A stretch of DNA of 64,000 bases. Source: a virus. Within the stretch, counting starts at the first letter, position 1. Every line of letters begins with the position of its first letter. Of this stretch, positions 3,637 to 46,470 are shown one piece after another. The stretch spans positions 1-64,000 of IMG/VR virus record IMGVR_UViG_3300049825_000745; one strand, written 5' to 3'. Made by a program: the position numbers and the translations under genes. The notes under the pieces are model-generated. The model was not told the origin of the DNA. It saw only the letters and a list, made by a program, of their open reading frames with translations, and did not search any database.

Positions 3637-3775
3637 TTTTAATCTTAGGCCCAGGCTTTTTAGGCTCTGGCACCCATTTATGCCTGCAATCCATGCATTG
3701 TTTGCGATCGCTTCCTGATGGGAGGCGATCGCAATTTGTTATTCGCTCAGACTTACAGACAGGGCACTTATGCAC
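3614..3775 (-). CDS. Small zinc-ribbon protein
   Basis: A 53-residue protein with two CxxC pairs (CPVC near residue 4 and CMDC near residue 29) and a basic, proline-rich tail (KKPGPKIKIKH). The likely start is a GTG at 3775 that overlaps the stop of the upstream DUF6745-like gene by 8 bases, suggesting translational coupling. The spacing of cysteines resembles DNA-binding zinc ribbons of transposases and small phage regulators. Function is unknown. It contains HIP1 octamers inside the coding sequence. Confidence 0.5.
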   Translation of the reverse strand: MHKCPVCKSERITNCDRLPSGSDRKQCMDCRHKWVPEPKKPGPKIKIKHPTTP

Positions 3776-14450: not shown

Positions 14451-17400
14451 ATGCCCGTAACCCTAGACACTCTCCTGCTCGAATTTGCCGCTGATTTTAG
14501 TCAATATGACGCGGCGGTCAATGATGCCGAACGTCGCCACATGGCGGCGGCAAAACGCTTAGAGAGTGCCTATAGTGCGGTCAAGCCGCCCAATTTTAGC
14601 GATCTAAAGGTCAATGTTGATCTGTCTCAGTTGCATGAGCTGAATCGCCTTTACAACGTGGTTAAACCCAACGACCATAAGGCATTTCAACGGTTTTTAG
14701 ACGCTAATCCGCTAAAGGTCAAAACCGATACGTCACAGCTTGTCAATGCGATCGCCCTCATTAAAGACTTGCGGGGCGAATTGACAAGCCTTAAGAGTGA
14801 GGCAAGCATTCAGGCAAAGTTGACCGTCACTCATCAGATTGATGGGCGGCAAGTTGGCGATCAAATTCGATCCGCTTCTAAGGATGGTGCGGAGGAATAC
14901 GAGAAGGCTATTGGAAAAGCCTTTAGGGATAACAGGCCAAGCGGCGGGGGTGTCCTGGGTAGCCTGTTTTCAATCCCTAACGCAGTGATTCAAGGCATTG
15001 GGATTCAGGTAGGCGATCGCATCTCTAGAGGATTCGGCAAAGCGACCGATTCAAGCCTAGAAGCTTTTGGGCGTGGTCTGGATAAGCAGATTAACCGGGC
15101 TGTCCAAACCATGACCATTGGGCTAGCGAAGGCGGGCGGGTATGGATCGGCAAAGGATTTTAGGAAAGATGCCGATCAAACCATTGACAACCTGACAAAC
15201 TTTAGTCCTCAACGGGTTAACCGAGCAATCCGAAAGCTTGAAGATAATTTAGTCGATGTGCTTGAATCTGCGGTGGTCGATGGCGATCAGGCCGCTGTTT
15301 CCGCAAAGCTCAAAAAGCTCCAGACGGAAATGCTAGAGCGGCCTATTGAGGCTGCAATGAATACCGCTGGCGCTGCCTTAAGGATTGGGGCGCAGCCGTT
15401 TAGGATTCGTAAGCGAGTTGAACTATCCCGAACGGTCAAGGAAGCCGAGGGCATGGTTGATGAAATTCTTCAGGATATGTCTGAGGAGTTAAAAGACCAA
15501 ATCAGAAAAGCTAAAGGCGTCACGATAGCGACCGGAGGAATTGACTATCAGAAAGGTGGTGAGAATACCTATTTCAGTGCAAATCTAGTACGGAAGCTGA
15601 CACCTGGAAACGTAACCATTCCATCTCCTAATACCTATAGCAACGATCCTTCTACGTTAGGAACATTATATAAAGCGCGTCAGGCAGTATTCCCAGGTGC
15701 TCCAATGCCTGTTGATAGGCTATTGCGGACGGCTGTAGAAACAGGTAGAAACCCTGATGCGGCTAAGATGTTAGCTCAGGTGATGGCAGTTCGCAAGATT
15801 GCACCAGATACACCTATCACGCTAACCGGATCGTCCGGTGGCGCTGCATTGGTTGAAGAGGTTGTGGGGGCAGTAGAACGAGCAGCGATCGCAAAGGTCA
15901 AAGGTGTAGGTCTAACGTTGCCAGGGTTTGACCTGACCCGTACTGCATCAAAAAATAACTACAAAGCATTGGTAGGGTCTTACGATCCAATTGCAGTTTC
16001 AGCTTTTGGCAATTTATTTAATGATGGAAGTGAAAACTTTCTTGAAACTCAGAAAAAGAGCATTGTTCCATTCCCTTTGACGGGGCTTTTGACACCAGGA
16101 GTTGCAACCTCAGTCATTCCAAAAGCAGGGCTACTACACAACCTAGCTAAATTTTTGGGGAGAGAAGCTGTTCAGACTCAATTTACTGAATTTACTGGGA
16201 CAGGGCAGATTGATCCTGGCTATACAAAAGGAGAGAGGTCTTTTTCTTTTGCAAATAAGCTTTATGATGAGTCGCAAAGCATTCCTCGCACTATTGGCGT
16301 AATACTTGGCGACCTCAAAGCGCTGTCTGAAGTTGCTAAAGGTGAATATAGCTTTATAGATCCTGGCAATCCTAGTTACAGACGAGACAATGATTTTGCA
16401 GCAATGTCAGGCAACTTTGAAAAACTCAATGTATCAGGTGCCGATGTTCCTGAACATGAAAAATTCCTGGCTTGGCTCAAAACCTTTAAGCGTGAGCTGA
16501 CAGCCTTTTACGAAATGGCGGGAACCCATGAAGGCATGATGCCCAAGGGGTTGACCGATGCAGCAAAGCAGGGACAAGATTTTTTCAAGTTTAGATCAGG
16601 CGTATTTCAGCCTGAGTACAATGCACCATTAAACATTCCCAATGCTCCCGAAAAGGTCTATGAACTGGCTACCAACGGCGCGAACGCAGTCAGCAGCGCC
16701 CTAGAGAAACTTTCCCCCGTAGGCGATGCCGCTGCATCTGTATTAAGTAACGTGGCCCAAGGACTGGGAAACATTGCAGGCGATCGCCTACAGAAGAGAG
16801 TAGATAATCTGAGAGGCGAACAGACCGGGCAAAGAGGCACGGCGGGCGAATTGGGCAAGATTGCCGCCCAAGATATTGCAACGGTCAAGCAAGTTGGGTT
16901 ACAGGCTACCGAGCAAGTTGTAAAATTTGCAGACGGCACGATCAAAGCGGGTAAGGCAGCGCGTGATTTTGTCCAGGGGATGATCTCTCAGGGTCGCACC
17001 ATCCAAGATTTAGGGGATGCAGTTGTCGAAGTATCGGCTGAGCTGGTCAGTGAGTTCGAGGGCTTGGGCGGTATGGGGGCGGCTGATATCAAGCTGCTCA
17101 CGGGGGCAATGGCGGCACTCAAGGGTGAGATTAATAGTTTGCCGCCATTACTACCATCAGCAGACATCAGTAAGTCAGAGAAAGAAATCCAAGCGCTGGT
17201 ACAGACGGCGGATAGGCTCTATGAAGTATGGGATCGATTATCTAAGGAATCAAGCACAGTATCACTAGCCCAAGGCGGCGTTTTTGATATTAATAGCCTT
17301 GAAAAAACGTTATCAATAATTGGTCAAATTGAGCATGAGTTAAATCAAGCTCGAAAACTTACTAACGTCAAATATACGCCGGAATATGAAGGTTTAATTT

Positions 17401-20400
17401 CTCAGGTTCGATCCGTACAGGCTCCTCTCGGTAGGCTAAAAGCTGGTGCCTACAGTGGCCTAAGAAAAAACCTGTCACAGGTCAAAGAAGCGGCAGACGC
17501 TGGCGATGATACGGCTCAAGGCTTTATTGATGGATTTGGGCTAAAGGCTGATGTGATTGCCTCAGTTGCCAATAAGGCAGGCAAAGATTTTATTGCTGAA
17601 ATGAAATCTGTATTAGGAATTGCGTCGCCAGCAAAGGTCACGATTGAGATTGGGAAACAGACGGTTGACGGTTGGGAGATTGGTCTTGAAGATCTTGATG
17701 ATGTTTGGATGAGATCGCTTCGGTCACTTAATAAAGCGATGAAGACAGGCAAAATTGAAGACTTTAGTTTTACTGATGTTGACCGATTATCCAACTCAAT
17801 TAAATCTCAAGTTCAGGCTGGCAATCAAAATATTAAGGTTGACCTTGGTCTTGAAGATCTTGATGATGTTTGGATAAGATCGCTTCGGTCACTTAATAAA
17901 GCGATTAAGACAGGCAAAATTGAAGACTTTAGTTTTACTGATGTTGACCGATTATCCAACTCAATTAAATCTCAAGTTCAGGCTGGCAATCAAAATATTA
18001 AGGTTGACCAATTCGGCACAGTATTAGAAGACGAAAAGCCTAAAGTTCAGAGAACTTATCGTGAAATTGGGTTTGAGATTGGATCTAAGACAAAAGAAGG
18101 CATTGACCAAGCAGCCCCCGTCGTCAAAAAGGCGATCACTTCTCTATCAGATGGCATCATCAATCAACTTCGCATCGTTGCTCCTGGTATCACCGGATTT
18201 ATCGAAGGGATTGGCCTAGACCTTGACAAGTTGAAATCCCTCGGAGCGGCGGGGCTAACCTTGACGGCTGGAGCCGTTGGGGTGGGATTATTTGGCGGGA
18301 AAATCCTTGAGGTTGCCAACAATACCGCCGATGCGGCCACAGAGCAAAATCGATATAAACGGATTCTAGACCAAACCGTTGCGGGGGGCGGAGCTAGTTA
18401 CTACCAAAAACTGGTTAAGCAATCTAATGATTTAGGGAACAACCTTCAAAATGCTGTTAAATCTGCGACGGCAATAGAAACAAGTATTCAGAACACCGCG
18501 CTGGCTGGGACTGGCGTTGAAATCCTAAGCGGGTTTCAATCTCAATTTGCAGCTCAAGGCACACCTGATCAGGACCAAGCGCGCGCGCTTGTGGGGATAG
18601 GTCAGGCATTGCGAAAAAACAAGTTGCAGGCTGAAGAATTATATCAAGTCATTGAGCCACTACCAGGCGCAATGGAAGCATTGCAGGCCGCAACAGGGAA
18701 AACAGGCGCTGAACTATTTAGAGCTACAGCGGCGGGGGAAGTCTTTACGGAAGACGTGATCCAGTCGTGGTCAGACCAACTCAAAATTGTCTCTGGACTA
18801 TCAGGATCGTCGAATACCGCAGAAGCAAGTATGGGGCGGTTGAATAATCAAACTTATCTACTTGCTGCAAACGTGGGGCAGATGACCAACGTTGTCCGCA
18901 AGGTAGGTACTGATTTATTCGGTGGCGCTCTTTCTGTTGCCAACAACAATGCACTATTGCTTGACGCTATGATCGCCACGCTTACCGTATCCTTTGGAGT
19001 GGGATTTGTCGCCGCATTAATAAAGGCTGGAGCAACGCTATTTGCACTTACTGCGACCTCTGCCGTAACTCAGTCTGCTCTAGCGGGGGTGGCCACTGGA
19101 CTAGGCACTATTGCTACTATTGCGGCCCCGGTGACCGCTGCCGCCCTTGCGATCGCCGGAGGTTTTGCGCTGTGGGAGCTGACAAAGCCTAGTGACGATG
19201 TGGAGAAGCTTGCTAACAATGTTAAAAGGCTTACTGACAGACTGAAGGAACTTGAAGCACAGCGGCGCAAAGTAGATAATCCAACAATCGTAAAACCCAC
19301 TGTTCAGAATCTTTCCCTGCCGCTATCCGGCACAGTGGACCCAGCCGCAGGATACAGGGACGCATTCAACGACCTTGCGTCTGGCAAAGTAAAAGAAGAT
19401 GCAAGCAAAGCCAAGCTTGACGAAACGTTGCAGCGGTTTTCTAATGGAATTAGCGAGTCATCTTCTTTTCTATCTGATCTAAAATCTAACGAGAAAGATT
19501 TATTAAACATTAAAAAACTTTCTTTAGAAATTATTGAGCTTCAGGGCAAATCAAACGTTTCCAAATACGAAGGAGACACCAATAAAACAACTAAGTACAA
19601 TGACCAGATCACTGTCCTGACAAAACAACTTGGGACAATTAAAAATTCAAGCCAGTTAACTGAGCAAAAAACGATCTTGCAAGGCTTGATCGCTGAATCT
19701 GATAAATATATCGCCACACAGCAATCAAGTTCCGACCCATCATCAAAATTTAATATCGCAAAGGCAACAGAGTACAAAGATAAACTTAAGAGTATTTATG
19801 AAGAGTTAAATAAAATTGATGGGCTAAGTAATACCTCACTGCAAAAAATCAATGTGGGTATTGAGAATAAAGTATTGCAGGCTGACCGACTGCTGAAGTT
19901 AAAGCAAGACACTGAGCTAAGAATTGAAGCGGAGAATATCAAGCAGTTTGGCGGAAGTGGAACTCAGGACCAGGTTCAACTTGGGGTCTTGAAAGCAAAA
20001 CAGCAGATCCGCAGACTAGATGACACCGCCCAACAGTTCCGTAGCTATTTAGAGGCTTACAATAAAGCTCTGAAAGCTATCACACCTAAGGATAAATCCG
20101 ACCTTGCAAGTGCATTGGCAAGTAAAGGCGTCACACTAGAATCCGCAACAAAAAGCGACTTAGAGGCAGCCATCAAGGTTTTAGAAGCGGGCGATCGCAA
20201 GCCATCCGAATCACTCAAAACCTTTGTGAATAGTGCTGCTATAGCAAAGAAAACAGCAGAGGATAGCCTGTTACAGGGAGCGAAGGAACGCGCTCAAGCT
20301 GTACAGGATGAGGCTGCGTCACAGAAGGCATTGAATGACGCTCAAGTTGATTACGCCCGTACAATCCGTGATAGCAACTATGAGTTGACAAAGGCAATAT

Positions 20401-23400
20401 CTGACCACTCACGGGAACTTAAAAGGGCTTATGAAGATACGATCCTAGAAACTAAAAAACTACAGCTTGAAGCGCTGAACCTAAGCCGTAACAATAATAT
20501 CCGCAGTCGGATCCAGTCAACGGCGGGGGACTTTACGGATCAGTTGGTAGGGTCTATTCAGCAGTTCCTTGATCAAGTAAATGAAGCGATGTCCATCAAG
20601 CTTGAAGGCGCGGGAGCGCGTCAGGGGATTGACCGGAAGATTCAGGATTTGATCACAACCGAAGAAAAATGGGAACGAGACATTGCTAAGCAACAAGAAG
20701 GATTGAGTGATGCGGTGGCGACTCAGCAGGGAACTCCCAAAAACTTTGCAGATTTCAGTGCAAAGCTAGGGGCAATAACAATGCCGCACGATCATAACTA
20801 TGGGGTAGGGCGTGCTGGGGGTAGTAGACAGCACGCGGGGCAGGATTACGATATATCAGGCAATCAAGAAGTCTATGCCGGAGTTTCTGGCGTTGTAACA
20901 AAGGTTGGCACTGACCCCGGAGGGTACGGTAACTATATTGACATCTTCAATAATCAGCTAAAAGTAGTGGAGCGAATTGCAGAGGCGGCAACACTATTGG
21001 TAAAAGTTGGGGATAAAATTGTACCCGGTCAATTGGTCGGACGGGGGGAATCTGAAACGGGCGTTATCCATCGGGAAATCAGAACAGACTTCAACTCAGC
21101 GGGGCAGGGCGGATATGGCTTCAAGGGGACAGTAGACCCTAGAGAATTTTATAAAAAGCATCTTCCTGCTCTATTTGCGGAATCTCAAAACAAAGCTGAT
21201 TTCCGTTTCGCCCCAGGGGCCTTGAATGAAGAGATCCTTGCCAAGATCAATAAGTTCATTGAGCAATACGCTCCAAGCTCAAGACTTCGAGGGGGCGATT
21301 TTGCGGCGGCATCTAGCGCGTCAGGCGTATCTATTGATGCCCTTGTCACTCAAGCCCTGATTGAGAGCCATTTTGGCACTACGGGCCGAGCAGCCTATAC
21401 CAAAAACCCGCTTAACTATGGGAATGACGATGAAGGCAACGATAAATATTTTGATTCCTTCCGTGATGGGCTGATTCATGCCGCCAAGGCACTCAAAAAG
21501 GACTTCTTTGTTAGTACTCCTGAGTCGTTTATGGGACGTGGATTTAAGGGGCGTTACGGCATCTATGCGACCGATCCGCAATACCTATCCAAGTACAAGT
21601 CAGCGCTAGGGTTGGTTCGATCTGCAATTGGAACGCCTTCCTCTGGGGCTGGCGGCGGGGCCGGATACACTGACTCAGGAGTTGTTTATCAGCCAGACAA
21701 TAGCACCGTCATTGGAGCTACCGCCAACCAGCTTGAAGCGCAGAAGACTGCACAGTCACAGCTTGCACGACTTAAAGCGCAAAAATCGACCTTAGACGCG
21801 GACGCAACCGGACGCGGCATTATCCGCACCCTCAAAGACCAAATTACCGCTGAACTACAGGCCAGCAACACCGCTCAATCTTCCGCGCAACAGCGTAGAG
21901 ATAGCATTCTCGTTCAAACGCCAGTAACACAAGTTTATGGACAGCTCTCACAAAAAACCTTTGCTGATGACTCCGAACTGATTCAGAAACAGCGCGATCT
22001 TCAGAAGAAGCAAGAAGATCTTGCCGCAAATAACCGACTTGTTACGTTGCTTCAGGGCAAGTTGAACGCGCCAAATGTTCCTGCTAACTTCAAAACTTCT
22101 TACACCGAGATTATTAAACTCACCGGAGAGCGTAACGCCAAGCTCAAAGAACTCATCCCCACGCTCCAGGAAGAAATTGAGACAATTAAAGATACCAGCC
22201 CACTAAGAACATTTACCCGTGAGCTTCGGATCGCTGCGGACTCTCAAATCTCCTCGGCTGAATCGGTAATGTCCCAACTGAGTCAATTTAACGATCAGTT
22301 GAGATTACCAGGGGCTATCGATTTGGCCCAAACGACACGAGCGCTATCCTCTCAATATCGCAGCTTGAAAGAATCCACTCTGCAACAAAATGAGGCATAC
22401 ACCGCCAGTATTCAGAAAACACTAGAACTAGAGGCGGCACAACGCAAGTTAGGCAATCTAGACGCTGCTGCCGCGCTAAAACAGCAGGCTGAGAGGTTGG
22501 CTGAATCAGCGCTAGAGTTTCAGTCGGCGGCTAATGCGCTCACACCTGCCGCCGAACAAGTGGCGATCGCCAATGCCAAGCTCGACGCACTCTATAAAAT
22601 GCGGCTGGACGCTCGTAAATTTGTAGATGCGCTGGGCGCTCAAGACTCAACAAACCTAGGGCTACAGGCCCAAATTTATGAAGGGGCGGGCGATACCTAT
22701 AGCGCCAATGCCATCAAGAGACAAGTTGAACTAATGAGCAAGCAAAAAGAGATCAGCGATCGGCTCCTAGAAAATGAGAACGAAATTGCCAAGCTCAGAA
22801 ACAAGGACAGCCTGACAGGAGATATAAATTCTCCACTAGATGCCTTTGGAGCGCTTGGGGCAGGCTCTCAGATTGAGGCGCTAGAGGCCACCAATCAGAA
22901 GTTGCGTGAAATGATGAGCCTAACCGAGGAACTTGCAGCGCAATCGTTCCCAACTTTTGAGGAAACAATGGAGCGCACGTTTGCGGAGAGCGGGGGAGGT
23001 GCTGTCAAGGAATTTTTCAACAGCCTGAATTCTGGCAAGGGTATCCTCGAATCTTTGGGCGGTGCGTTTAGCAGCATGGCAAACACGATCATCCAAAAAG
23101 TGCTCGAAATGGTGTCACAGATTGTTCAGTCGAAGCTACTGGATTTAATCAAAGGGCTGTTTGGCGGCGGGGGACTAGGCAACCTTGGCGGATTCAGCGG
23201 CGTGACAGGCGTTAGTTTTACCTCAATTCCTGGGTTTTATTCCGGTGGCCCTGTAGTTGGCAATCTTGCGGGTGGTGGCCCTGTCGATTTGGGTCTTTCA
23301 GCGATCAAGGCACTCGACAAGGAGCGTCAGCGTAATGGTGGGCAACGGGTTGGGCTATTTGCTCTAACGCATGGGGAGGAAGTCCTAGACCCAAAGAATG

Positions 23401-23705
23401 CGGCGTTCTATCGAGCGATTGAGGCGAACGGTATCTGGGACGATCTCAAAGCCAATGCAGGCTATGACAGCCCAATCGGAAATCGCGCCAATGGCGGTCC
23501 GGTTGGTGACTACGCTTCGGTGGTCAACAATCGCAGCTCTGCCAATAACCAATCTTCTATCAGTATCCCCATGAGTTTTTCTGTGGAGAGCAAGACGGAT
23601 GAGGACGCGGCGAAGGCGATCGCTCCTGAGCTTCAAAAGCGCATGGAATATACCTTTAATGAGTTATGGCTGCAACAGCAGAGACAGAGAGGGGCGATCG
23701 CTTAG
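14451..23705 (+). CDS. Tape measure protein with lytic and hydrolase-like domains
   Basis: A 3084-residue tail length ruler; gene length implies a long tail. An alpha/beta-hydrolase-like region lies near residues 350-570: nucleophile motif GSSGG (460-464), possible D512 and H563. A 55-residue tandem duplication follows (1078-1187), then a tape-measure domain (about 1300-1450) and hydrophobic segments (1500-1580). A lysostaphin-type M23 region (2111-2210) has HAGQD, but the usual HxH is reduced to VIHRE, so the catalytic His may be missing. A glucosaminidase-like region (2265-2395) contains ALIESHFG. The C-terminus has a Gly-rich stretch and HGEEVLDP, common in tape measures. Cell-wall domains would help DNA entry through peptidoglycan. 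Confidence 0.85.
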   Translation: MPVTLDTLLLEFAADFSQYDAAVNDAERRHMAAAKRLESAYSAVKPPNFSDLKVNVDLSQLHELNRLYNVVKPNDHKAFQRFLDANPLKVKTDTSQLVNAIALIKDLRGELTSLKSEASIQAKLTVTHQIDGRQVGDQIRSASKDGAEEYEKAIGKAFRDNRPSGGGVLGSLFSIPNAVIQGIGIQVGDRISRGFGKATDSSLEAFGRGLDKQINRAVQTMTIGLAKAGGYGSAKDFRKDADQTIDNLTNFSPQRVNRAIRKLEDNLVDVLESAVVDGDQAAVSAKLKKLQTEMLERPIEAAMNTAGAALRIGAQPFRIRKRVELSRTVKEAEGMVDEILQDMSEELKDQIRKAKGVTIATGGIDYQKGGENTYFSANLVRKLTPGNVTIPSPNTYSNDPSTLGTLYKARQAVFPGAPMPVDRLLRTAVETGRNPDAAKMLAQVMAVRKIAPDTPITLTGSSGGAALVEEVVGAVERAAIAKVKGVGLTLPGFDLTRTASKNNYKALVGSYDPIAVSAFGNLFNDGSENFLETQKKSIVPFPLTGLLTPGVATSVIPKAGLLHNLAKFLGREAVQTQFTEFTGTGQIDPGYTKGERSFSFANKLYDESQSIPRTIGVILGDLKALSEVAKGEYSFIDPGNPSYRRDNDFAAMSGNFEKLNVSGADVPEHEKFLAWLKTFKRELTAFYEMAGTHEGMMPKGLTDAAKQGQDFFKFRSGVFQPEYNAPLNIPNAPEKVYELATNGANAVSSALEKLSPVGDAAASVLSNVAQGLGNIAGDRLQKRVDNLRGEQTGQRGTAGELGKIAAQDIATVKQVGLQATEQVVKFADGTIKAGKAARDFVQGMISQGRTIQDLGDAVVEVSAELVSEFEGLGGMGAADIKLLTGAMAALKGEINSLPPLLPSADISKSEKEIQALVQTADRLYEVWDRLSKESSTVSLAQGGVFDINSLEKTLSIIGQIEHELNQARKLTNVKYTPEYEGLISQVRSVQAPLGRLKAGAYSGLRKNLSQVKEAADAGDDTAQGFIDGFGLKADVIASVANKAGKDFIAEMKSVLGIASPAKVTIEIGKQTVDGWEIGLEDLDDVWMRSLRSLNKAMKTGKIEDFSFTDVDRLSNSIKSQVQAGNQNIKVDLGLEDLDDVWIRSLRSLNKAIKTGKIEDFSFTDVDRLSNSIKSQVQAGNQNIKVDQFGTVLEDEKPKVQRTYREIGFEIGSKTKEGIDQAAPVVKKAITSLSDGIINQLRIVAPGITGFIEGIGLDLDKLKSLGAAGLTLTAGAVGVGLFGGKILEVANNTADAATEQNRYKRILDQTVAGGGASYYQKLVKQSNDLGNNLQNAVKSATAIETSIQNTALAGTGVEILSGFQSQFAAQGTPDQDQARALVGIGQALRKNKLQAEELYQVIEPLPGAMEALQAATGKTGAELFRATAAGEVFTEDVIQSWSDQLKIVSGLSGSSNTAEASMGRLNNQTYLLAANVGQMTNVVRKVGTDLFGGALSVANNNALLLDAMIATLTVSFGVGFVAALIKAGATLFALTATSAVTQSALAGVATGLGTIATIAAPVTAAALAIAGGFALWELTKPSDDVEKLANNVKRLTDRLKELEAQRRKVDNPTIVKPTVQNLSLPLSGTVDPAAGYRDAFNDLASGKVKEDASKAKLDETLQRFSNGISESSSFLSDLKSNEKDLLNIKKLSLEIIELQGKSNVSKYEGDTNKTTKYNDQITVLTKQLGTIKNSSQLTEQKTILQGLIAESDKYIATQQSSSDPSSKFNIAKATEYKDKLKSIYEELNKIDGLSNTSLQKINVGIENKVLQADRLLKLKQDTELRIEAENIKQFGGSGTQDQVQLGVLKAKQQIRRLDDTAQQFRSYLEAYNKALKAITPKDKSDLASALASKGVTLESATKSDLEAAIKVLEAGDRKPSESLKTFVNSAAIAKKTAEDSLLQGAKERAQAVQDEAASQKALNDAQVDYARTIRDSNYELTKAISDHSRELKRAYEDTILETKKLQLEALNLSRNNNIRSRIQSTAGDFTDQLVGSIQQFLDQVNEAMSIKLEGAGARQGIDRKIQDLITTEEKWERDIAKQQEGLSDAVATQQGTPKNFADFSAKLGAITMPHDHNYGVGRAGGSRQHAGQDYDISGNQEVYAGVSGVVTKVGTDPGGYGNYIDIFNNQLKVVERIAEAATLLVKVGDKIVPGQLVGRGESETGVIHREIRTDFNSAGQGGYGFKGTVDPREFYKKHLPALFAESQNKADFRFAPGALNEEILAKINKFIEQYAPSSRLRGGDFAAASSASGVSIDALVTQALIESHFGTTGRAAYTKNPLNYGNDDEGNDKYFDSFRDGLIHAAKALKKDFFVSTPESFMGRGFKGRYGIYATDPQYLSKYKSALGLVRSAIGTPSSGAGGGAGYTDSGVVYQPDNSTVIGATANQLEAQKTAQSQLARLKAQKSTLDADATGRGIIRTLKDQITAELQASNTAQSSAQQRRDSILVQTPVTQVYGQLSQKTFADDSELIQKQRDLQKKQEDLAANNRLVTLLQGKLNAPNVPANFKTSYTEIIKLTGERNAKLKELIPTLQEEIETIKDTSPLRTFTRELRIAADSQISSAESVMSQLSQFNDQLRLPGAIDLAQTTRALSSQYRSLKESTLQQNEAYTASIQKTLELEAAQRKLGNLDAAAALKQQAERLAESALEFQSAANALTPAAEQVAIANAKLDALYKMRLDARKFVDALGAQDSTNLGLQAQIYEGAGDTYSANAIKRQVELMSKQKEISDRLLENENEIAKLRNKDSLTGDINSPLDAFGALGAGSQIEALEATNQKLREMMSLTEELAAQSFPTFEETMERTFAESGGGAVKEFFNSLNSGKGILESLGGAFSSMANTIIQKVLEMVSQIVQSKLLDLIKGLFGGGGLGNLGGFSGVTGVSFTSIPGFYSGGPVVGNLAGGGPVDLGLSAIKALDKERQRNGGQRVGLFALTHGEEVLDPKNAAFYRAIEANGIWDDLKANAGYDSPIGNRANGGPVGDYASVVNNRSSANNQSSISIPMSFSVESKTDEDAAKAIAPELQKRMEYTFNELWLQQQRQRGAIA
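17682..18011 (+). repeat. 165-base tandem duplication inside the tape measure gene
   Basis: Two direct copies (17682-17846 and 17847-18011) encode GLEDLDDVW through NQNIKVD. The second is nearly identical to the first; I see only G to A and G to T changes (M to I at two sites) before the last codons. The period is exactly 55 codons. This indicates a recent in-frame duplication. Confidence 0.9.
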
Positions 23706-39915: not shown

Positions 39916-40097
39916 TTGGTCGTTTCAACCCCATCAATATAAACCCTCACTTTCCCAGTTTTGGTCGAATAAATTTGCACGCTAGCCCTAGGAGTGATCA
40001 CCCCCAACAAACCCCAGCCTTTGCGATCGTCGCTGGCGCTTCGTTGAACCCTAAGACTGCCCCATTCGAAACCGTAATCCGTATTTTTGAAATGCAT
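39912..40097 (-). CDS. Small phage protein, first gene of the leftward operon
   Basis: Sixty-one residues: YGFEWGSLRVQRSASDDRKG, then GVITPRASVQIYSTKTGKVR. The W-G...V-R motif and 'KGW..' region occur in many small cyanophage and phage proteins of unknown function. It diverges from the CopG-like gene at 40140; the shared control region is 40098-40139. Confidence 0.55.
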   Translation of the reverse strand: MHFKNTDYGFEWGSLRVQRSASDDRKGWGLLGVITPRASVQIYSTKTGKVRVYIDGVETTK

Positions 40098-40139
40098 TGG
40101 GTATGGTATAGTGTAAATCTGATGTTAATTGTAACACAT

Positions 40140-40298
40140 ATGCCGCAGATTGAAAGTAGTATTGAGCGCAGTCCGTTACAGGTTGCCATTGACCCTGGAT
40201 TGAAGAAGAAAATTATTGAAGTAGCAAAGCGTGAGGGCATTTCTCAGGCTGAGGTGATGCGCCGCGCATTTGTTTTTTACTACGCTAGCCAGAATTAA
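40140..40298 (+). CDS. Ribbon-helix-helix (CopG-like) small protein
   Basis: Fifty-two residues from the ATG at 40140. The segment LQVAIDPGLKKKIIEVAKRE followed by GISQAEVMRRAFVFYYAS has the beta-strand plus two-helix layout of RHH regulators. The stop abuts the primase start at 40299. It probably regulates the divergent helicase operon or its own replication operon. Confidence 0.6.
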   Translation: MPQIESSIERSPLQVAIDPGLKKKIIEVAKREGISQAEVMRRAFVFYYASQN

Positions 40299-40817
40299 AT
40301 GCCGTACAGCAGGCGGTTCATAGACGATATTCGAGCAACTGCCAATATCGCCCAAATTGTCAGCGAGGTTATTGAGTTAAAAGCCTATCCAGGCGATCGC
40401 CATAAGGGGCTATGTCCGTTCCATAACGAGAGCAGCCCTAGTTTTTCTGTGAGCAAAAATTTATATTACTGTTTTGGATGCGGTGAAGGTGGGGACGTGA
40501 TCCGGTTTGTGGAGCGCACCCAGGACGTATCCTTTGGCGCTGCCGTTAGGTTATTGGGCGATCGCTACAACCTCACGGATGATGATTCTACCCCCGTGAG
40601 GCCACGACCGCCCGTAAAGCGAGCCTTGCCGCCCATGCAGCAGCCTAAGGGGTACGTTGCGCCGATTGACCCTATTGTGGCGGCATACGATCCGTATGCC
40701 GCTCAACTCTTTGATGATTTGTATCAGCCCGATTTTGACCTTTTATTAACGCTGGGGATTGTCCCTAGCTCTTTAGCTCTGGAGCTTTTGAACGATGTCA
40801 GTTTGTCCCATTTGTAA
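40299..40817 (+). CDS. DnaG-type primase zinc-binding domain protein
   Basis: A 172-residue protein with only the CHC2 zinc domain of DnaG: FIDDIRATANIAQIVSEVIE, then GLCPFHNESSPSFSVSK and YYCFGCGEGGDVIRFVE. The toprim catalytic domain is absent; the rest is Pro-rich and low in motifs. In P4-like primases the zinc domain is fused to a helicase; here it is a separate gene overlapping the helicase gene by 23 bases. Confidence 0.85.
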   Translation: MPYSRRFIDDIRATANIAQIVSEVIELKAYPGDRHKGLCPFHNESSPSFSVSKNLYYCFGCGEGGDVIRFVERTQDVSFGAAVRLLGDRYNLTDDDSTPVRPRPPVKRALPPMQQPKGYVAPIDPIVAAYDPYAAQLFDDLYQPDFDLLLTLGIVPSSLALELLNDVSLSHL

Positions 40818-42618
40818 CGGATCGGATACGTGTCAGGTTGACGAAGTTTTAGTGATTTGTCGAGCAGCCAAGAAAAGTAAGCCAGTGTCGGGATATCGAG
40901 CAGTACATGAGGCTGTTCGCGGTGGGGGCTGGGTTTGGGAGCCTGTGAAGGTTTTGGCTGAGGTAGTGACTAACGGCAATGGCAATGGGCATAAGCCTGC
41001 AGATGCGGTGGGGTTTGAGCCTTTGGTGGACGGGGATGAACCGCAGGCCAAAGAGTCTACTAATTCTAAAGGCATTGGCGATGACGATGGGAGAACGTTT
41101 AACCAGAAAGCTCATGAAAAGCTTTACAGCCAAAACAAATGGGTTTGCTTTTCTAACGATCTTTATATCTGGGAGGGAAATTATTATAGGTTAGTGACTG
41201 ACGATGAAGAGATCCCTAGAATACAAGTTTTTTGTGACTCCTATACCGAAGACAAAGCTATAGGAAGAGGAGCGAAGCAGCAGGTCATAACAACATATCC
41301 ATACGCTAATCCTCGTTCAGTTTTGGACGTTTTGAAGTGGGTAAAGATGAAGTACACAAAGGATATGTGTTTTGTTAATCCACCTGGGATTAATTGCAGC
41401 AATGGAGTGGTCAACCTTCTTTGGGTTGGGAAAACATTGACTGTAGAACTTGTAAATCACGACCATTCAGTTCATTACTATATTTCAAAACCAAGCGTAA
41501 AATACGATCCAAAAGCAAGCCCAAAATGTTACGAAAAAATGATGGAGTGCTTAGACGATGGCGCTAGGCAAATTTGGGAAAGAACCATAGCTGCATCCAT
41601 TGATATGCCTACAATCCGAAAATATGGTAGTAGAACAGTAAAGGCTTTATTCTTAAAAGGCGATGGGTCTAACGGGAAGGATTCATTAAAGCGAATCACT
41701 CAAATATTGTTTGGGCGTGGCGCTATGTCTGCATGTTCATGCACAGATTGGCAGCAATACGATGAGGGCAGATATTTTACTATTTACCCATTGCAAGGAA
41801 AGAGAATTAATTGGCCTTCAGAAAACGCTGATGCTGGCAGAATAGACAGGCTTCAAGGGCTTAAGGCTGCTATCACTGGAGATGAAATTATTTTCGAGAG
41901 GAAGGGCAGAGACCCTCAGTCGGGAGAGCCTCAAGCCGTGTTTCTTTTTAATATCAATGAGAACCCTAATTTATTGGCACAGCTAAAGGCCAATGCTAGC
42001 CGTTGGGCGATCATTCCTTTTGATAAAACGTACTCAGACAACCCAGGAGTAGGGGAACTTAAGGCTGATTCAAGATTTAAGGATGACCTTGAATTCTTGA
42101 ATCAGAATGTAGTCCCAGCTTTTTTGAACAAGATTTTGGAGCAACTTCAGAACGTTGTTAGAGACGGCATTGACTACAGCCCAGTGCAAGAAACGATGGA
42201 CTCATTGCAAAAAGACTCATGCCATCTTCTGCGGTTCGCAGAAGACGAAGGACTAAGGTATATCCCAAATAACACTATTACCCCTAGCGAAATCTGGGAT
42301 CGTCTCAAGGCTTGGTACATCAGTGAGGGGATTCTTACGATTGATCATGCATACAACAAGCTTGAGTCAGCGGAAAAAAACGTATGGGTGTCTCAGGCCA
42401 ATCCCCTTGACCATAACGTCAAGGGGGCTAATCAGGTCATGACTCGCTTTCTTGAGCTTTTCCCAAAAGCAAAGCAAGGATCAGGCTTAGATAAAAACAA
42501 AAACAAAAAGCTACACATCATAGGGCTAGGGTTTGAGCCAAAACAGACTCCAGTAATCCCAGTCCCAGAGACAGGCCCGACCCTTCCCGGCCCTGATGAC
42601 TATGTTTATGAAGGGTAG
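40795..42618 (+). CDS. P4-type SF3 replicative helicase
   Basis: A 607-residue protein. The N-terminus has a zinc motif (CPIC...C). The central part (YDPKASPKCYEKMMECLDDG, ALFLKGDGSNGKDSLKRI with Walker A near 290, then QGKRINWPSE and FNINENPNL) matches D5/P4 primase C-terminal SF3 helicases. A separate AEP primase domain is not visible. SF3 helicases of this type bind iterons at their origin, and such repeats start right at this gene's stop codon. Confidence 0.85.
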   Translation: MSVCPICNGSDTCQVDEVLVICRAAKKSKPVSGYRAVHEAVRGGGWVWEPVKVLAEVVTNGNGNGHKPADAVGFEPLVDGDEPQAKESTNSKGIGDDDGRTFNQKAHEKLYSQNKWVCFSNDLYIWEGNYYRLVTDDEEIPRIQVFCDSYTEDKAIGRGAKQQVITTYPYANPRSVLDVLKWVKMKYTKDMCFVNPPGINCSNGVVNLLWVGKTLTVELVNHDHSVHYYISKPSVKYDPKASPKCYEKMMECLDDGARQIWERTIAASIDMPTIRKYGSRTVKALFLKGDGSNGKDSLKRITQILFGRGAMSACSCTDWQQYDEGRYFTIYPLQGKRINWPSENADAGRIDRLQGLKAAITGDEIIFERKGRDPQSGEPQAVFLFNINENPNLLAQLKANASRWAIIPFDKTYSDNPGVGELKADSRFKDDLEFLNQNVVPAFLNKILEQLQNVVRDGIDYSPVQETMDSLQKDSCHLLRFAEDEGLRYIPNNTITPSEIWDRLKAWYISEGILTIDHAYNKLESAEKNVWVSQANPLDHNVKGANQVMTRFLELFPKAKQGSGLDKNKNKKLHIIGLGFEPKQTPVIPVPETGPTLPGPDDYVYEG

Positions 42619-43007
42619 TACCCAGTTGTACCCAGGTAGTACCCACTTACGTACCCACCTAAAAACGTGTGATCTATAGCCTGAAGGGGTTCCGTATCTA
42701 GTAGTACCCAGATCGCCTATTTTACCCTATACACGCGAGAGAGTTAAAAAAAAAGATGTACTACATAAAAAGATTAAAAAAGCAAAAAATAACTAAAACC
42801 TCCAGCGATAGGGGGCATTTTTGGCGATCTGGGTATGTGTGGGTACGGAACCTTTACGGGGCAAAGGTTCCAGAAAAAAAAGTGGGTACACCGATGGGTA
42901 CTACCTGGGAACACCTGGGTACTACTATTTGTTACATAGCTTGATACAAAAAAAATGACTTAAAAAATATTTAGCGTACTACATTCAAAAAAGATTGCGT
43001 ACTACAT
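42618..43007. other. Iteron-rich probable replication origin
   Basis: A gene-free stretch of about 400 bases after the helicase. GTACCCA occurs five times (42618, 42628, 42639, 42651, 42704) and its reverse complement TGGGTAC four times (42840, 42883, 42895, 42916), facing each other around an A-rich core (42740-42800). GTACTACAT occurs at 42758, 42976 and 42999. Inverted iteron blocks next to an A/T-rich segment and a P4-type helicase fit a replication origin. The small ORF inside it is not likely to be coding. Confidence 0.7.
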
Positions 43008-43025
43008 TGGGCAAGTCTGCGGCCT

Positions 43026-43331
43026 TTGCCCATCCGTAAAACAGGCACCTACACCGCCACAGCCACAGACCAGCAGCATTTTGCCCCGTTCGGCATTACG
43101 TTGAAGCTCAAGATTGTTGAATGCGATCGCGCCATAGAAGGGGCTACTGTGGGCACAGGAAAAGTCAGGGCTATCCTGGCAGACCGTAAGGCATTAGAAC
43201 AGGCGTACAAGGCGCATCCAACGGCTGATGAAGACCTGCTAGCTAAGTTCATAGAGGCTTTTCTCTGCACCTATGGAGCGGGGAAACCGCTCAAACCCCT
43301 AGGTTGGGGTGCTTTTTGTTTGTTATACTAA
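43026..43331 (+). pseudogene. Fragment related to a BRO-N protein
   Basis: The start LPIRKTGTYTATATDQQHF matches the end of the intact BRO-N protein at 43419-43781 (LPTIRKTGSYTATAADQQ). It lacks the BRO-N domain itself and continues as a short region (KVRAILADRKALEQAYKAHP) not found in that protein. It appears to be the 3' part of another, largely lost BRO gene. The frame runs through a terminator at its end. Confidence 0.55.
43276..43317 (+). terminator. Terminator after the BRO fragment
   Basis: GAGCGG...CCGCTC (43276-43292) is followed by ACCCC (43295-43299) pairing with GGGGT (43306-43310) and then GCTTTTT. This would separate replication genes from the BRO gene. Confidence 0.6.
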
Positions 43332-43346
43332 GTATACTATTCAAGT

Positions 43347-43401
43347 TTGACGTAGCTTGATGGTGCAATAACATATCATCTGTTATGATAATTATGTTAT
43401 T
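43347..43401 (+). promoter_or_regulatory. Promoter with nested palindromic operator before the BRO gene
   Basis: TTGACG (43347-43352), 16 bases, then TAACAT (43369-43374) is a candidate promoter. It overlaps the inverted repeat AATAACATA (43367-43375) / TATGTTATT (43393-43401), inside which TATCAT/ATGATA form a second dyad. This is the look of a dimeric repressor site over a -10 box. Confidence 0.5.
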
Positions 43402-43418
43402 CACTTTGGGGTTGCTTG

Positions 43419-43781
43419 ATGGCTCTCACTATTGCATCTAGTCTTGAATTTTCATCTCAATCGTTTACCGTTTACCTTGATCCTGATAATGAGACTTGGT
43501 TCCAGGGGCTTGAATCGTGCAATCAGTTGGAATTAACTAACCCTACCTTGACTCTTCAGCGTCATGTTTCACCACAGTATCGGTGTCAAATCGCAGATGG
43601 ACGCGGAAAGCCAGCATGGTTTATCAAAGAACCAGGACTTTATCAGTTGATTTTTGCTTCTAAGTCTGAACGCGCTGAAAAATTCAGAGAATGGGTATTC
43701 AAAGATGTCCTCCCCACCATCCGCAAAACAGGCTCATACACCGCCACAGCAGCCGACCAGCAGCTTTTCTTTGGAGCTTAG
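43419..43781 (+). CDS. BRO-N domain protein (antirepressor-like)
   Basis: A 120-residue protein made only of a BRO N-terminal domain: SLEFSSQSFTVYLDPDNETW, KEPGLYQLIFASKSERAEKF and WVFKDVLPTIRKTGSYTA. BRO-N proteins in phages often act as DNA-binding antirepressors, normally with a second C-terminal domain that is missing here. The C-terminal signature is duplicated in the fragment at 43026. The ATG at 43419 follows a TTG. Confidence 0.75.
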   Translation: MALTIASSLEFSSQSFTVYLDPDNETWFQGLESCNQLELTNPTLTLQRHVSPQYRCQIADGRGKPAWFIKEPGLYQLIFASKSERAEKFREWVFKDVLPTIRKTGSYTATAADQQLFFGA

Positions 43782-43783
43782 TC

Positions 43784-44218
43784 ATGAAAGCCATCCTTAA
43801 ATTAAACGGGAAAGCCGCCAAAGCCCTCTCCTACAACACCTCATCTGTCACCCTAGCCACCAAGTCCGGCAAGCCCGACATTATCACCTGGGCGGACGTA
43901 GACTACCTCGTCGGCGATGACGGCCTAGAGCGTCACCGAGAGGTCGTAGAGGGCACGCCCAAAATCATCGTCCAGGCACCCAAAGATCCTCGATGGGGAT
44001 CCATGGCGATCGCCCCAACCCAACCAAACCTATTCGCACCCCCGCTAAAATGCCCTCAGGATGATTTTGAGGATGCGATCACCTTGATAGATGCCATCGA
44101 CAATGACGATGTGCGTGAGGCTGTGCGGGGGGTGCTAACGGCAACGTTTGAGGGGGAGGAGAAGCGGAAGCTTTGGGGGATGTTGAGTTTTGATCAGAAA
44201 GCGAGGTTGAAACATTGA
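43784..44218 (+). CDS. Early protein, unknown, next to BRO gene
   Basis: A 144-residue protein from the ATG at 43784 (MKAILKLNGKAAKALSYNTS), 2 bases after the BRO stop. It has a beta-rich first half (VTLATKSGKPDIITWADVDY) and an acidic helical second half (DDFEDAITLIDAIDNDDVRE). I do not recognise it. Probably co-transcribed with the BRO gene. Confidence 0.5.
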   Translation: MKAILKLNGKAAKALSYNTSSVTLATKSGKPDIITWADVDYLVGDDGLERHREVVEGTPKIIVQAPKDPRWGSMAIAPTQPNLFAPPLKCPQDDFEDAITLIDAIDNDDVREAVRGVLTATFEGEEKRKLWGMLSFDQKARLKH

Positions 44219-44222
44219 TTTC

Positions 44223-44252
44223 TTGCCAAACCCCCAATCTTGTGTGTACAAT
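44223..44252 (+). promoter_or_regulatory. Candidate sigma-70-like promoter
   Basis: TTGCCA (44223-44228), 18-base spacer, TACAAT (44247-44252), lying 30 bases before the ATG at 44283. Confidence 0.4.
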
Positions 44253-44282
44253 GGACGCATACTATAGAGAGTTGAATCTGTT

Positions 44283-44558
44283 ATGTCTCAGGCCCAAGTT
44301 CTTGATAAGCCGTGCACCGAAATCAGCCCATCCTTGGGGCAGGTCATCTGCATTCATCCCCATGCAGATAAGGCAAGCCACGTCTATTATTTTGATGCGT
44401 TGGTTTCCCACAAAGATCACCTCGAACGCCGTCAAGTTTTGGTTGTTTCTCCAAGCGACTCGCTTGCCGCCGTCAACAGAGCGGTTTGGGCTGAGTTAGG
44501 CGATCGCTGGTTCTGCGTTCAATTTCGAGTCAGGAGAAAAAACAATGCCACGCGGTAA
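44283..44558 (+). CDS. Small early protein, unknown
   Basis: Ninety-one residues (LGQVICIHPHADKASHVYYF, VLVVSPSDSLAAVNRAVWAE), mixed alpha/beta. A HIP1 site lies inside. It overlaps the next small gene by 14 bases. No family recognised. Confidence 0.5.
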   Translation: MSQAQVLDKPCTEISPSLGQVICIHPHADKASHVYYFDALVSHKDHLERRQVLVVSPSDSLAAVNRAVWAELGDRWFCVQFRVRRKNNATR

Positions 44559-44685
44559 ACGATTTGTGATGTGGTTAGTTGGCCATGACGAAGCAATTTT
44601 TGCTGCATTGAAACTAAAATTTCCGAGTCTTAAAAAAGCTCAGATTGTCAGGATAGCACTGCAAACATTATTGGACTCGGAATAA
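44545..44685 (+). CDS. Very small RHH-like protein
   Basis: Forty-six codons with a good ribosome binding site (AGGAGAAA): MPRGKRFVMWLVGHDEAIFA and FPSLKKAQIVRIALQTLL. The strand plus two helices resembles a ribbon-helix-helix regulator. Its TAA overlaps the next ATG. Confidence 0.45.
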   Translation: MPRGKRFVMWLVGHDEAIFAALKLKFPSLKKAQIVRIALQTLLDSE

Positions 44686-44750
44686 TGGCCACACGAATTA
44701 ATCTAGAAGGCCAGCGGCAAAAAGACGGTCGCCTGACCGCTATCAAATAG
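44685..44750 (+). pseudogene. Gene start truncated at an IS605-type hairpin
   Basis: Twenty-one codons (MATRINLEGQRQKDGRLTAI) that stop where the hairpin repeat at 44752-44803 begins. The start overlaps the upstream stop as in other intact gene pairs here, so the original gene was probably longer and was cut by the insertion. Confidence 0.4.
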
Positions 44751-44751
44751 A

Positions 44752-44803
44752 CCTCCAGGAGTCCCGCGCTGTACCTGTACTCAGGTCAGCGTCGGGAGGA
44801 ATG
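44752..44803 (+). repeat. IS605-type right-end hairpin, isolated
   Basis: The 35-base core CCCGCGCTG-TACCTGTACTCAGGT-CAGCGTCGGGA (44764-44798) is the same as the reverse complement of the hairpin at 2048-2094. Outer arms extend as ACCTCC...GGAGGA. No transposase is near. It breaks the small gene at 44685. Confidence 0.55.
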
Positions 44804-44865
44804 GAGATCTATTTGAGAAAGATGATTTTTACAAAGCAAAAAAGTATCAGAGCTGGAATTTTCAC

Positions 44866-45066
44866 ATGACACAACTTAGGCCGTTTGCCAAATACGCCAA
44901 GCAATTTCAATGGTTCACAACTGTTGTGACGCGGCTCCAGCCCGACTATGTTGGGGTTGCGTGGAGCATCGCCCATCGAGAGGGACTGGAACATGCGATC
45001 GCATTTTGCGAGACCAAGATCCAAGACTCTCAACTGATGCAGGCGTATCGAGACTCTGAATTTTGA
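44866..45066 (+). CDS. Small protein, unknown
   Basis: Sixty-six residues: LRPFAKYAKQFQWFTTVVTR and GVAWSIAHREGLEHAIAFCE. It lies after the isolated hairpin and may be the displaced 3' part of the gene cut at 44750, but reading frames do not join directly. No family recognised. Confidence 0.4.
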   Translation: MTQLRPFAKYAKQFQWFTTVVTRLQPDYVGVAWSIAHREGLEHAIAFCETKIQDSQLMQAYRDSEF

Positions 45067-45165
45067 TCAATTTCCTCCTCCAGTGGGCACAGTAAACGTA
45101 TACCCACTGGAGACAACCCATGAACTTAAATCAAAGCATCTTGCGCATTCGAGAAGCTGGCAGCA

Positions 45166-45267
45166 ATGCAAAACGCTCGATACTCTGAGGTTGAAGCACT
45201 TTTCTCGCAGCCTGCCACCCATGTTGAGGCAGCGGCGATCGCCCAACTAAAAAATATTTTTGGATAG
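45166..45267 (+). CDS. Very small ORF with EAAAIAQLxxxFG tail
   Basis: Thirty-three codons (MQNARYSEVEALFSQPATHV...) ending in EAAAIAQLKNIFG. The same ending pattern (DAAVIAQLESVFGT) closes the partial minus-strand gene at 63917, which argues that both are coding and related. Function unknown. Confidence 0.4.
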   Translation: MQNARYSEVEALFSQPATHVEAAAIAQLKNIFG

Positions 45268-45271
45268 GGGC

Positions 45272-45300
45272 TTGACAATGCCTAGAAAATACTAGATACT
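45272..45300 (+). promoter_or_regulatory. Conserved promoter TTGACA-17-GATACT
   Basis: TTGACA (45272-45277), 17 bases, GATACT (45295-45300). The spacer contains CCTAGAAAATACTAG, shared with the minus-strand promoter at 49181-49209. It precedes a paralogue of the gene that the other copy precedes. Confidence 0.6.
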
Positions 45301-45338
45301 GAAAGAGTACCAGCTTGACAAACAAAGGGAAACGACCA

Positions 45339-45482
45339 ATGGCTAAAACTGACGAAGAACTCAAGACAATCCACAGTCGGCTAACTTGTTGGATCAAGGC
45401 TGAGCCTAGGCAGTGGAAAGATTTGGAGGCTTTCCTTGGGGCCATGGGGTATCAGATGAAGATTTTCAAAAAAGCCGAATAG
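45339..45482 (+). CDS. Small protein, paralogue of the gene at 48647
   Basis: Forty-seven residues: MAKTDEELKTIHSRLTCWIK, PRQWKDLEAFLGAMGY, MKIFKK. It matches the C-terminal two thirds of the 69-residue protein at 48647-48856 at most positions, so one is a duplicate. It has only the helical core. It is driven by the promoter at 45272. Function unknown; could be a small regulatory or inhibitor protein. Confidence 0.55.
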   Translation: MAKTDEELKTIHSRLTCWIKAEPRQWKDLEAFLGAMGYQMKIFKKAE

Positions 45483-45518
45483 AGCCCTTGACAAACTCGA
45501 TTTAAGGAAGCTTTGCAA

Positions 45519-45623
45519 ATGAAAAAAGTCCTAGTGGCAAGCGCAATTATCGCCAGTTTGATTTGGTTGGCGATCGCATGGAATCTCAAACAGCAGGATG
45601 AGGATTACCCCAATGGATTTTAA
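45519..45623 (+). CDS. Single-span membrane micropeptide
   Basis: Thirty-four residues (MKKVLVASAIIASLIWLAIA...) with one membrane segment or signal sequence and an acidic tail. It overlaps the next gene by 11 bases. Too short for family assignment. Confidence 0.4.
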   Translation: MKKVLVASAIIASLIWLAIAWNLKQQDEDYPNGF

Positions 45624-45810
45624 TTCGGTGAATATAGTCACCACCGGAAAAACCGGAAATTGCGGCACGTACCTAAAGCACAAGCATGGCGGTCGCCCCT
45701 TACTTATTCGCTTGGTATCCTTTGAGGGTCCTTTCCTCCATGGACAAAATCGAGGCCGCAATTACGTTGTCCTCGCAGAAGATTACGAACCATATCGCTC
45801 AACGAGATAG
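45613..45810 (+). CDS. Small protein, unknown
   Basis: Sixty-five residues from the ATG at 45613 (MDFNSVNIVTTGKTGNCGTY, RPLLIRLVSFEGPFLHGQN). Beta-rich. An in-frame ATG at 45598 would add five residues. Last gene before the terminase operon. Confidence 0.45.
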   Translation: MDFNSVNIVTTGKTGNCGTYLKHKHGGRPLLIRLVSFEGPFLHGQNRGRNYVVLAEDYEPYRSTR

Positions 45811-45827
45811 CAGAGTTGACATAATCC

Positions 45828-45854
45828 CCCGCGTCGCTTAACTGCGAACGCGGG
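45828..45854 (+). terminator. Hairpin before the terminase operon (repeated near 48884)
   Basis: CCCGCGTCGC and GCGAACGCGGG pair around TTAACT. A related hairpin (ACGCCCGCG...CGCGGGCGT) lies at 48884-48916. It may end transcription of the small-gene block; no T run. Confidence 0.4.
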
Positions 45855-45924
45855 CGTTAACCATAGACGCTCAGCCACTCTGTACTACGATAAAATCAAG
45901 TCACTGTAGCCAAGAGAAAATTTA

Positions 45925-46470
45925 ATGGGTCTCGGTTCTATCCCTTTTGAGCGCTCGATCGTTCGCAAAAAATCGACTCAGTTTCGGTTTGATATAGATC
46001 CGGTTGTCTATCAAAAGTTTATGGCCGCCATTTATAGCGGTGTCTCTGTAGATGATTCGGCTTGGTCCGCTGGTGTTCAACCTCGCACCGTTTACTATTG
46101 GCTCCAAAAAGGCGAGATACTTTATGAGTCTGATGCAGACCTTCCCCCCAGTTCCACGGCGTGGCAATATGCCCGCTTTTTTCACGACTACAAAATAGCG
46201 GCGTCCCAAGCGGTTGTTAAACACTCCATAAACATTGATAGTGCTAGTATTAAATCTACACCAACAAACTGGACAGCAAGCGCGTGGAAGCTCGAAAGAC
46301 TGCGCCCTGAGACTTATTCTCAAAAATATATAATCGAGAAAATAACGGATAAAAAAGTTCTCGAAGTGGTCAAATTTTTGTTCGAACAATCCCCCGATGA
46401 CGACTTTAGAGAGAAATTAGCGGGTATTGTGGGCATGATCCCAACACTAAAATTGAGCGATGCAGCTTAG
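45925..46470 (+). CDS. Terminase small subunit
   Basis: A 181-residue protein. Residues 25-65 (VYQKFMAAIYSGVSVDDSAW then AGVQPRTVYYWLQKGE) form the N-terminal helix-turn-helix that binds packaging sites, and the middle part is helical (AASQAVVKHSINID). It overlaps the large subunit by 11 bases, as is usual. The packaging site may lie upstream, near 45850-45920. Confidence 0.75.
   Translation: MGLGSIPFERSIVRKKSTQFRFDIDPVVYQKFMAAIYSGVSVDDSAWSAGVQPRTVYYWLQKGEILYESDADLPPSSTAWQYARFFHDYKIAASQAVVKHSINIDSASIKSTPTNWTASAWKLERLRPETYSQKYIIEKITDKKVLEVVKFLFEQSPDDDFREKLAGIVGMIPTLKLSDAA

Follow-up and report, generated by a model that had tools for sequence, protein, structure and literature searches.

What is the role of the facing repeats that begin at the very end of a helicase gene in this viral DNA, and which protein reads them? 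The stretch analysed, hereafter the window, covers 64,000 bases of a single IMG/VR virus record that is 64,538 bases long. Exact word matching located nine GTACCCA sites downstream of the helicase, five on the plus strand facing four on the minus strand (TGGGTAC), as the earlier note had described. Its observation that the first iteron overlaps the helicase stop codon is also correct, the G of the site at 42618 being common to the TAG at 42616-42618. The array thus begins immediately 3' of the putative initiator gene, the position expected of a PICI/SaPI-type origin. Its elements are as follows.

42618-42710, plus strand: left iteron arm, six GTACCCA sites starting at 42618, 42628, 42639, 42651, 42694 (GTATCTA) and 42704
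42618, 42628, 42639, 42651 and 42704, plus strand: exact GTACCCA, by word match
42711-42829, no strand: AT-rich core separating the arms, where melting is proposed, by AT content
42758-42766, plus strand: GTACTACAT box within the core, by word match
42830-42922, minus strand: right iteron arm, six sites at 42830 (one mismatch), 42840, 42883, 42895, 42906 (one mismatch) and 42916
42840, 42883, 42895 and 42916, minus strand: exact GTACCCA (read as TGGGTAC), by word match
42976-43007, plus strand: two GTACTACAT boxes outside the right arm (42976 and 42999), by word match

The word GTACCCA occurs 12 times in the whole window, where 4.6 copies are expected, and nine of the 12 belong to the facing arrays. 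Beyond these exact copies, three near-matches at mirror positions had been overlooked (42694 with two mismatches, 42830 and 42906 with one each), which brings the array to 12 sites, nine perfect, two with one mismatch and one with two. Each arm then contains six sites at offsets 0, 10, 21, 33, 76 and 86 from its outer end, around a centre at 42770, and the arms mirror each other exactly in spacing, in a six-per-side fit that takes in sites with one or two mismatches. A scan of the whole window for facing 7-mer arrays gave a score of 9 for the array at 42618-42922; the maximum in 100 random first-order (dinucleotide) sequences of the window's length was 5. Compared as inverted repeats, the arms are identical at 74 of 109 positions (68%). 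Since the core halves agree at only 15 of 49, this likeness is confined to the sites with their flanking bases rather than forming a single long palindrome.

The arms do face a core, which had been called A-rich and proves AT-rich: the region 42711-42839 contains 64% AT, and its stretch 42740-42799 reaches 82%, a level attained by only 0.013% of the record's 60-bp windows. With six sites mirrored on either side of a core of 64% AT, the array matches the layout of a PICI/SaPI origin. The boxes previously regarded as a second repeat are indeed present, with GTACTACAT found at 42758, 42976 and 42999, but a separate class is doubtful: since the copy at 42999 falls in a one-mismatch iteron (TGCGTAC, 42996), the boxes may be degenerate iterons, and the two outer ones possibly represent degenerate outer iterons. 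GC skew, suggested earlier as a check for an origin, does not change at the 42618-42922 site.

The array lies behind the following genes.

39975-40298, plus strand: CopG-type ribbon-helix-helix protein, encoded ahead of the module (RHH_1, 22.4 bits, cut-off 20.5)
40299-40817, plus strand: CHC2 zinc-ribbon protein of 172 aa, overlapping the helicase start (PF01807, 95.3 bits)
40795-42618, plus strand: D5_N/DUF5906 superfamily 3 helicase of 607 aa, proposed self-loading initiator (domain, fold and sequence matches)

The helicase had been called P4-type, which holds at the level of the superfamily but not at that of the P4 family: TIGR01613 gives 73 bits (E 1.8e-20), below its cut-off of 108.7, with homology over residues 199-513, and the nearest protein is that of SaPI5. 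The top PDB sequence-profile match is the SaPI5 primase-helicase (7ola, E 2.2e-11). When an AlphaFold2 model (mean pLDDT 70.4; residues 1-96 disordered) was compared by VIA-align, SaPI5 PriRep1 was again the best match (Z 20.6, rmsd 4.8, 388 residues), and the alignment spans model residues 93-582 and so includes the C-terminal part. Foldseek placed African swine fever PrimPol and SaPI5 PriRep1 among the best matches of the model. Judged from these profile and fold comparisons, the protein is a homologue of the SaPI Rep helicases, nearer to SaPI5 Rep than to P4. The proposed reader of the iterons is its C-terminal domain, around residues 475-582.

The neighbouring gene, formerly read as a separate zinc-finger primase, does encode the CHC2 zinc ribbon of DnaG-type primases (PF01807). 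However, it is not a complete primase, since the protein holds the DnaG zinc domain only and neither Toprim_2 nor Toprim_3 was found in the whole record, in searches whose positive controls worked. The ribbon-helix-helix protein is a candidate for copy or expression control. Just past the putative origin, the ORF 43026-43331 repeats the end of the BRO-N antirepressor (43416-43781; RKTGTYTATATDQQHFA versus RKTGSYTATAADQQLF), so that a truncated antirepressor copy adjoins it.

A single-sequence search with the helicase recovered no virus relative and, from a Thermosynechococcus MAG, a single N-terminal fragment; the viral relatives this search had missed were recovered by an alignment-based profile search, which yielded 80 helicase loci on viral contigs. 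Separately, a search of viral contigs for a GTACCCA triplet pattern returned 63 stretches. The comparison set comprises 102 D5/DUF5906 helicase loci from cyanobacterial plasmids, tailed viruses and the studied virus, which are not independent and fall into about 25 groups after clustering at 95% AAA+ identity. At a threshold score of at least 6, a facing array was found in 87 of the 102 loci, in every case no more than 700 bp from the helicase stop, in a zone accounting for 13% of the sequence; no array was found elsewhere in the 102 loci. At the same threshold, 15 loci were without an array, including that of the closest viral relative by identity (L027). The iteron word varies between replicons, whereas the geometry, the helical phasing and the AT-rich core are kept: consecutive spacings follow a helical period of about 10.5 bp (mean resultant length 0.70 over 186 spacings, with a p-value that ignores relatedness), and in 80 of 81 loci the core exceeds its own locus in AT content, its median length being 98 bp. 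This recurrence of a facing array behind the helicase in 87 of the 102 loci, with the word changed and the geometry kept, lends strong support to the earlier proposal that the neighbouring helicase acts on an iteron origin. Three details need amending: the helicase is not of the P4 family, the zinc-ribbon gene is not a complete primase and GC skew does not mark the site.

Helicases of cyanobacterial plasmids, several of them encoded next to ParM genes, share 38-43% identity with that of the window. A scan without prior motif detected arrays at the 3' end of the plasmid helicases, with the words CGACCCA, CGCCCCA, CCGCACC, TTAACCC, GTGAAGC, ACTCATT, GACTCAC, TGGGTAT and others, and four Nostoc plasmids have a common geometry of 0, 21, 32, 44, 75 and 84 in both arms. 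In cyanobacterial plasmids the array lies within the helicase coding sequence. In one of them (L005) the sites span two reading frames and both strands, which points to selection on the DNA rather than on the peptide. In two Cyanobacterium aponinum plasmids of 4.4-4.6 kb, the helicase, with the array at its 3' end, is the only large gene and is accompanied by two small ones. Seven plasmid loci (L007, L012, L013, L015 and L021-L023) are without a strong exact-word array; several array-poor plasmid helicase genes look decayed, and those of L022 and L023 are split into many ORFs. In the open-access papers on iterons in cyanobacterial plasmids we found no account of the facing-array layout, which is weak evidence.

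Most of the 80 viral loci carry a facing array within about 200 bp past the stop, with words such as GGACGCA, GGCGGACGCAA, CGAAGGCAAA and GGAGGC, and one of them (L033) has a terminase, a portal and a polymerase-processivity gene nearby. In these other viruses the right arm is no exact mirror of the left. As positive controls, the streptococcal satellite Javan175 showed facing CTACAC arrays, and Listeria phage LP-P111 (L174, 4011-4360) a facing GTTACCG array, both directly behind the helicase; the latter extends the PICI-type origin layout to cultured, full-size phages. The scan found no facing arrays in Arthrobacter phage Iter, Mycobacterium phage Milly and a Ruminococcus phage, whose helicases are distant. 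In Paenibacillus phage Wanderer, GTAACAGA-like repeats are visible by eye after the helicase, below the reach of the scan.

The change of word was then compared with the change of protein within the related virus clade. Among pairs with an AAA+ identity of 0.90-0.97, the C-terminal domains are 0.73 identical when the word is the same and 0.45 when it differs, as compared with 0.72 and 0.65 for D5_N. This contrast between the C-terminal domain and D5_N (0.137, 33 non-redundant sequences) was reached by none of 5000 label shuffles, which ignore descent, the pairs themselves being non-independent. Among all replicons, the pairwise correlation with the iteron word is not specific to the C-terminal domain. 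Since the shuffles disregard ancestry and the all-replicon signal is not domain-specific, we take the co-variation as support, not proof, that the C-terminal domain reads the iterons.

Collectively, these data suggest that 42618-42922 is very probably a replication origin of the PICI/SaPI type, and that the D5/SaPI5-type helicase encoded upstream would bind GTACCCA via its C-terminal domain. Within this reading, origin function itself, binding, the two hexamers, melting, directionality and priming are all predictions. Helicase subunits would bind the six phased sites of each side through their C-terminal domains, giving one assembly per side and thus two facing rings. Binding at both sides could strain and melt the core, whereupon each ring would load on single-stranded DNA and move outwards as the replicative helicase, so that replication would start, probably in both directions. 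Primers would come from host DnaG or another enzyme; since the CHC2 gene holds a zinc ribbon only and the record contains no Toprim domain of the two types sought, host DnaG, perhaps recruited through the CHC2 protein, is the simplest guess.

It is rather improbable that the iterons are instead operators, or partition or copy-control sites, for another protein of the ribbon-helix-helix or BRO/antirepressor type that would regulate the replication operon. Ribbon-helix-helix proteins can bind short heptamer arrays, an RHH_1 protein is encoded two genes upstream, CopG-type genes occur near the helicase in some plasmids and the BRO-N antirepressor follows at 43416. However, it is the 3' end of the helicase gene that the array accompanies, not the RHH or BRO promoters, and in plasmids it even lies inside the helicase coding sequence; furthermore, its word co-varies with the helicase C-terminal domain in related viruses, and an AT-rich core between facing arrays is a feature of origins. 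We consider it very unlikely that the origin is read mainly by host or unrelated initiators, with the helicase recruited later without reading the iterons. Such a scheme would accommodate the related loci that have no array, and helicase-iteron binding is a prediction; on the other hand, words differ among helicases of one clade with the geometry kept, as expected of a self-encoded reader, and in both SaPI Rep and SCCmec Cch2 it is the C-terminal domain that recognises the element's own iterons (PMC7581432). Finally, a mobile element remnant, or a cruciform or terminator without a role in replication, is hardly credible: the 68% identity of the arms could suggest it, but it belongs mainly to the iterons and disappears in the core halves, other replicons show the layout at the corresponding position with unrelated words, and an Rfam search of 40000-46000 gave no match.

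The carrier of this putative origin can be specified further. Since the record encodes a terminase, a portal, a lambda-like tail, head-decoration proteins and an endolysin, it belongs to a tailed virus. A PICI is a small satellite without virion genes of its own, whereas terminase, portal, tail and head proteins are all encoded here, and the carrier is therefore a phage, not a PICI. Its host is likely a hot-spring cyanobacterium, since the closest gene neighbourhood is that of a Thermosynechococcus MAG contig (L004), with the order ribbon-helix-helix protein, CHC2 protein and helicase start, and the nearest helicase by tree, at 49% identity, comes from a genome of the same order. On the MAG contig (5001-5333), the helicase N-terminus is 67% identical over 110 residues and is followed by a coiled-coil-like tail to the contig end, and this gene may have been rearranged.

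Elsewhere in the window, a transposase ORF of 462 aa (268-1656; phrog_506, E 7e-108) lies at the left end of the record. A 12-bp unit (TGTCGCGGAGAT) is repeated 31 times at 4406-4779, with a higher-order period of 60 bp, inside the minus-strand ORF 3768-4997. A nearly perfect 165-bp tandem duplication (98%) at 17680-18009, inside an ORF of 3084 aa (14451-23705), is either a recent duplication or an assembly effect.

A cyanobacterial genome (G018, contig 2) contains an 11.6-kb element (L178, 5041-16676) next to tRNA-Ser, bounded by 35-bp direct repeats. It encodes an integrase, the helicase nearest to that of the window, a TerS-like HTH protein (weak match) and RusA, and its helicase carries a facing CAAGATG array at the 3' end. 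Virion genes were absent among the ten ORFs scanned. From its gene content, this element looks like a PICI-type satellite in cyanobacteria.

We file the putative origin of the phage under the known PICI/SaPI kind, with a carrier range much wider than described. The layout occurs on a probable cyanophage, some fifteen loci of cyanobacterial plasmids, two of them 4.4-4.6 kb in size, and roughly seventy viral contigs, which suggests a common replicon type. There is about an even chance that the facing-array origin, rather than being peculiar to PICIs, generally accompanies D5/DUF5906 helicases, whether on plasmids, phages or satellites, and that a fixed six-plus-six mirror geometry docks two hexamers while the words change with the C-terminal domain. 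If so, replication specificity could be read and predicted from sequence. In uncultivated viruses the layout offers a direct means of locating origins and reading their specificity. It also suggests minimal rep-ori cassettes for cyanobacterial vectors, and the fixed geometry makes the two-hexamer melting model testable.

Compared with known systems, phage P4 alpha shares the related superfamily 3 helicase family, as seen from the TIGR01613 match, and P4 has an iteron-based origin, a cis region in two parts (ori and crr) with type I iterons. On the other hand, P4 alpha is a primase fused to a helicase, and the P4 ori/crr region is probably laid out differently. CyRepA1 and CyRepA2 (PMC9978351, PMC10079941, PMC10899382) likewise initiate replication of cyanobacterial plasmids and combine primase-like with helicase parts, but they have a DUF3854/DEXDc architecture and the pSYSA origin was placed upstream of the rep gene; these papers mention neither DUF5906 nor iterons. 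SCCmec Cch2 (PMC7581432) is also a D5-type helicase, and its C-terminal domain binds iterons that follow its operon, though the putative SCCmec origin in that report has three direct iterons only (AAGTG), and facing arrays are not reported. SaPI5 PriRep1 (PDB 7OLA, 7OM0, 7PDS) is the closest match in both VIA-align structure and PDB sequence comparison, at about 16% identity; unlike it, the virus protein has no fused N-terminal primase, and a separate CHC2 zinc protein is present instead. The closest resemblance of layout is to the PICI/SaPI origins (SaPIbov1, EcCICFT073 and others; PMC6092414, PMC7581432). PICI origins lie immediately 3' of rep, the gene of the initiator helicase, and invariably contain an AT-rich region with a set of iterons on each side (PMC6092414); shared as well are a D5-like helicase, a C-terminal reader (here proposed) and an element-specific iteron word. 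What sets the present locus apart is its six mirror sites per side, its plasmid relatives with the array inside the rep coding sequence, and its carriers, namely cyanobacterial plasmids and a full-size tailed virus that encodes terminase, portal and tail proteins.
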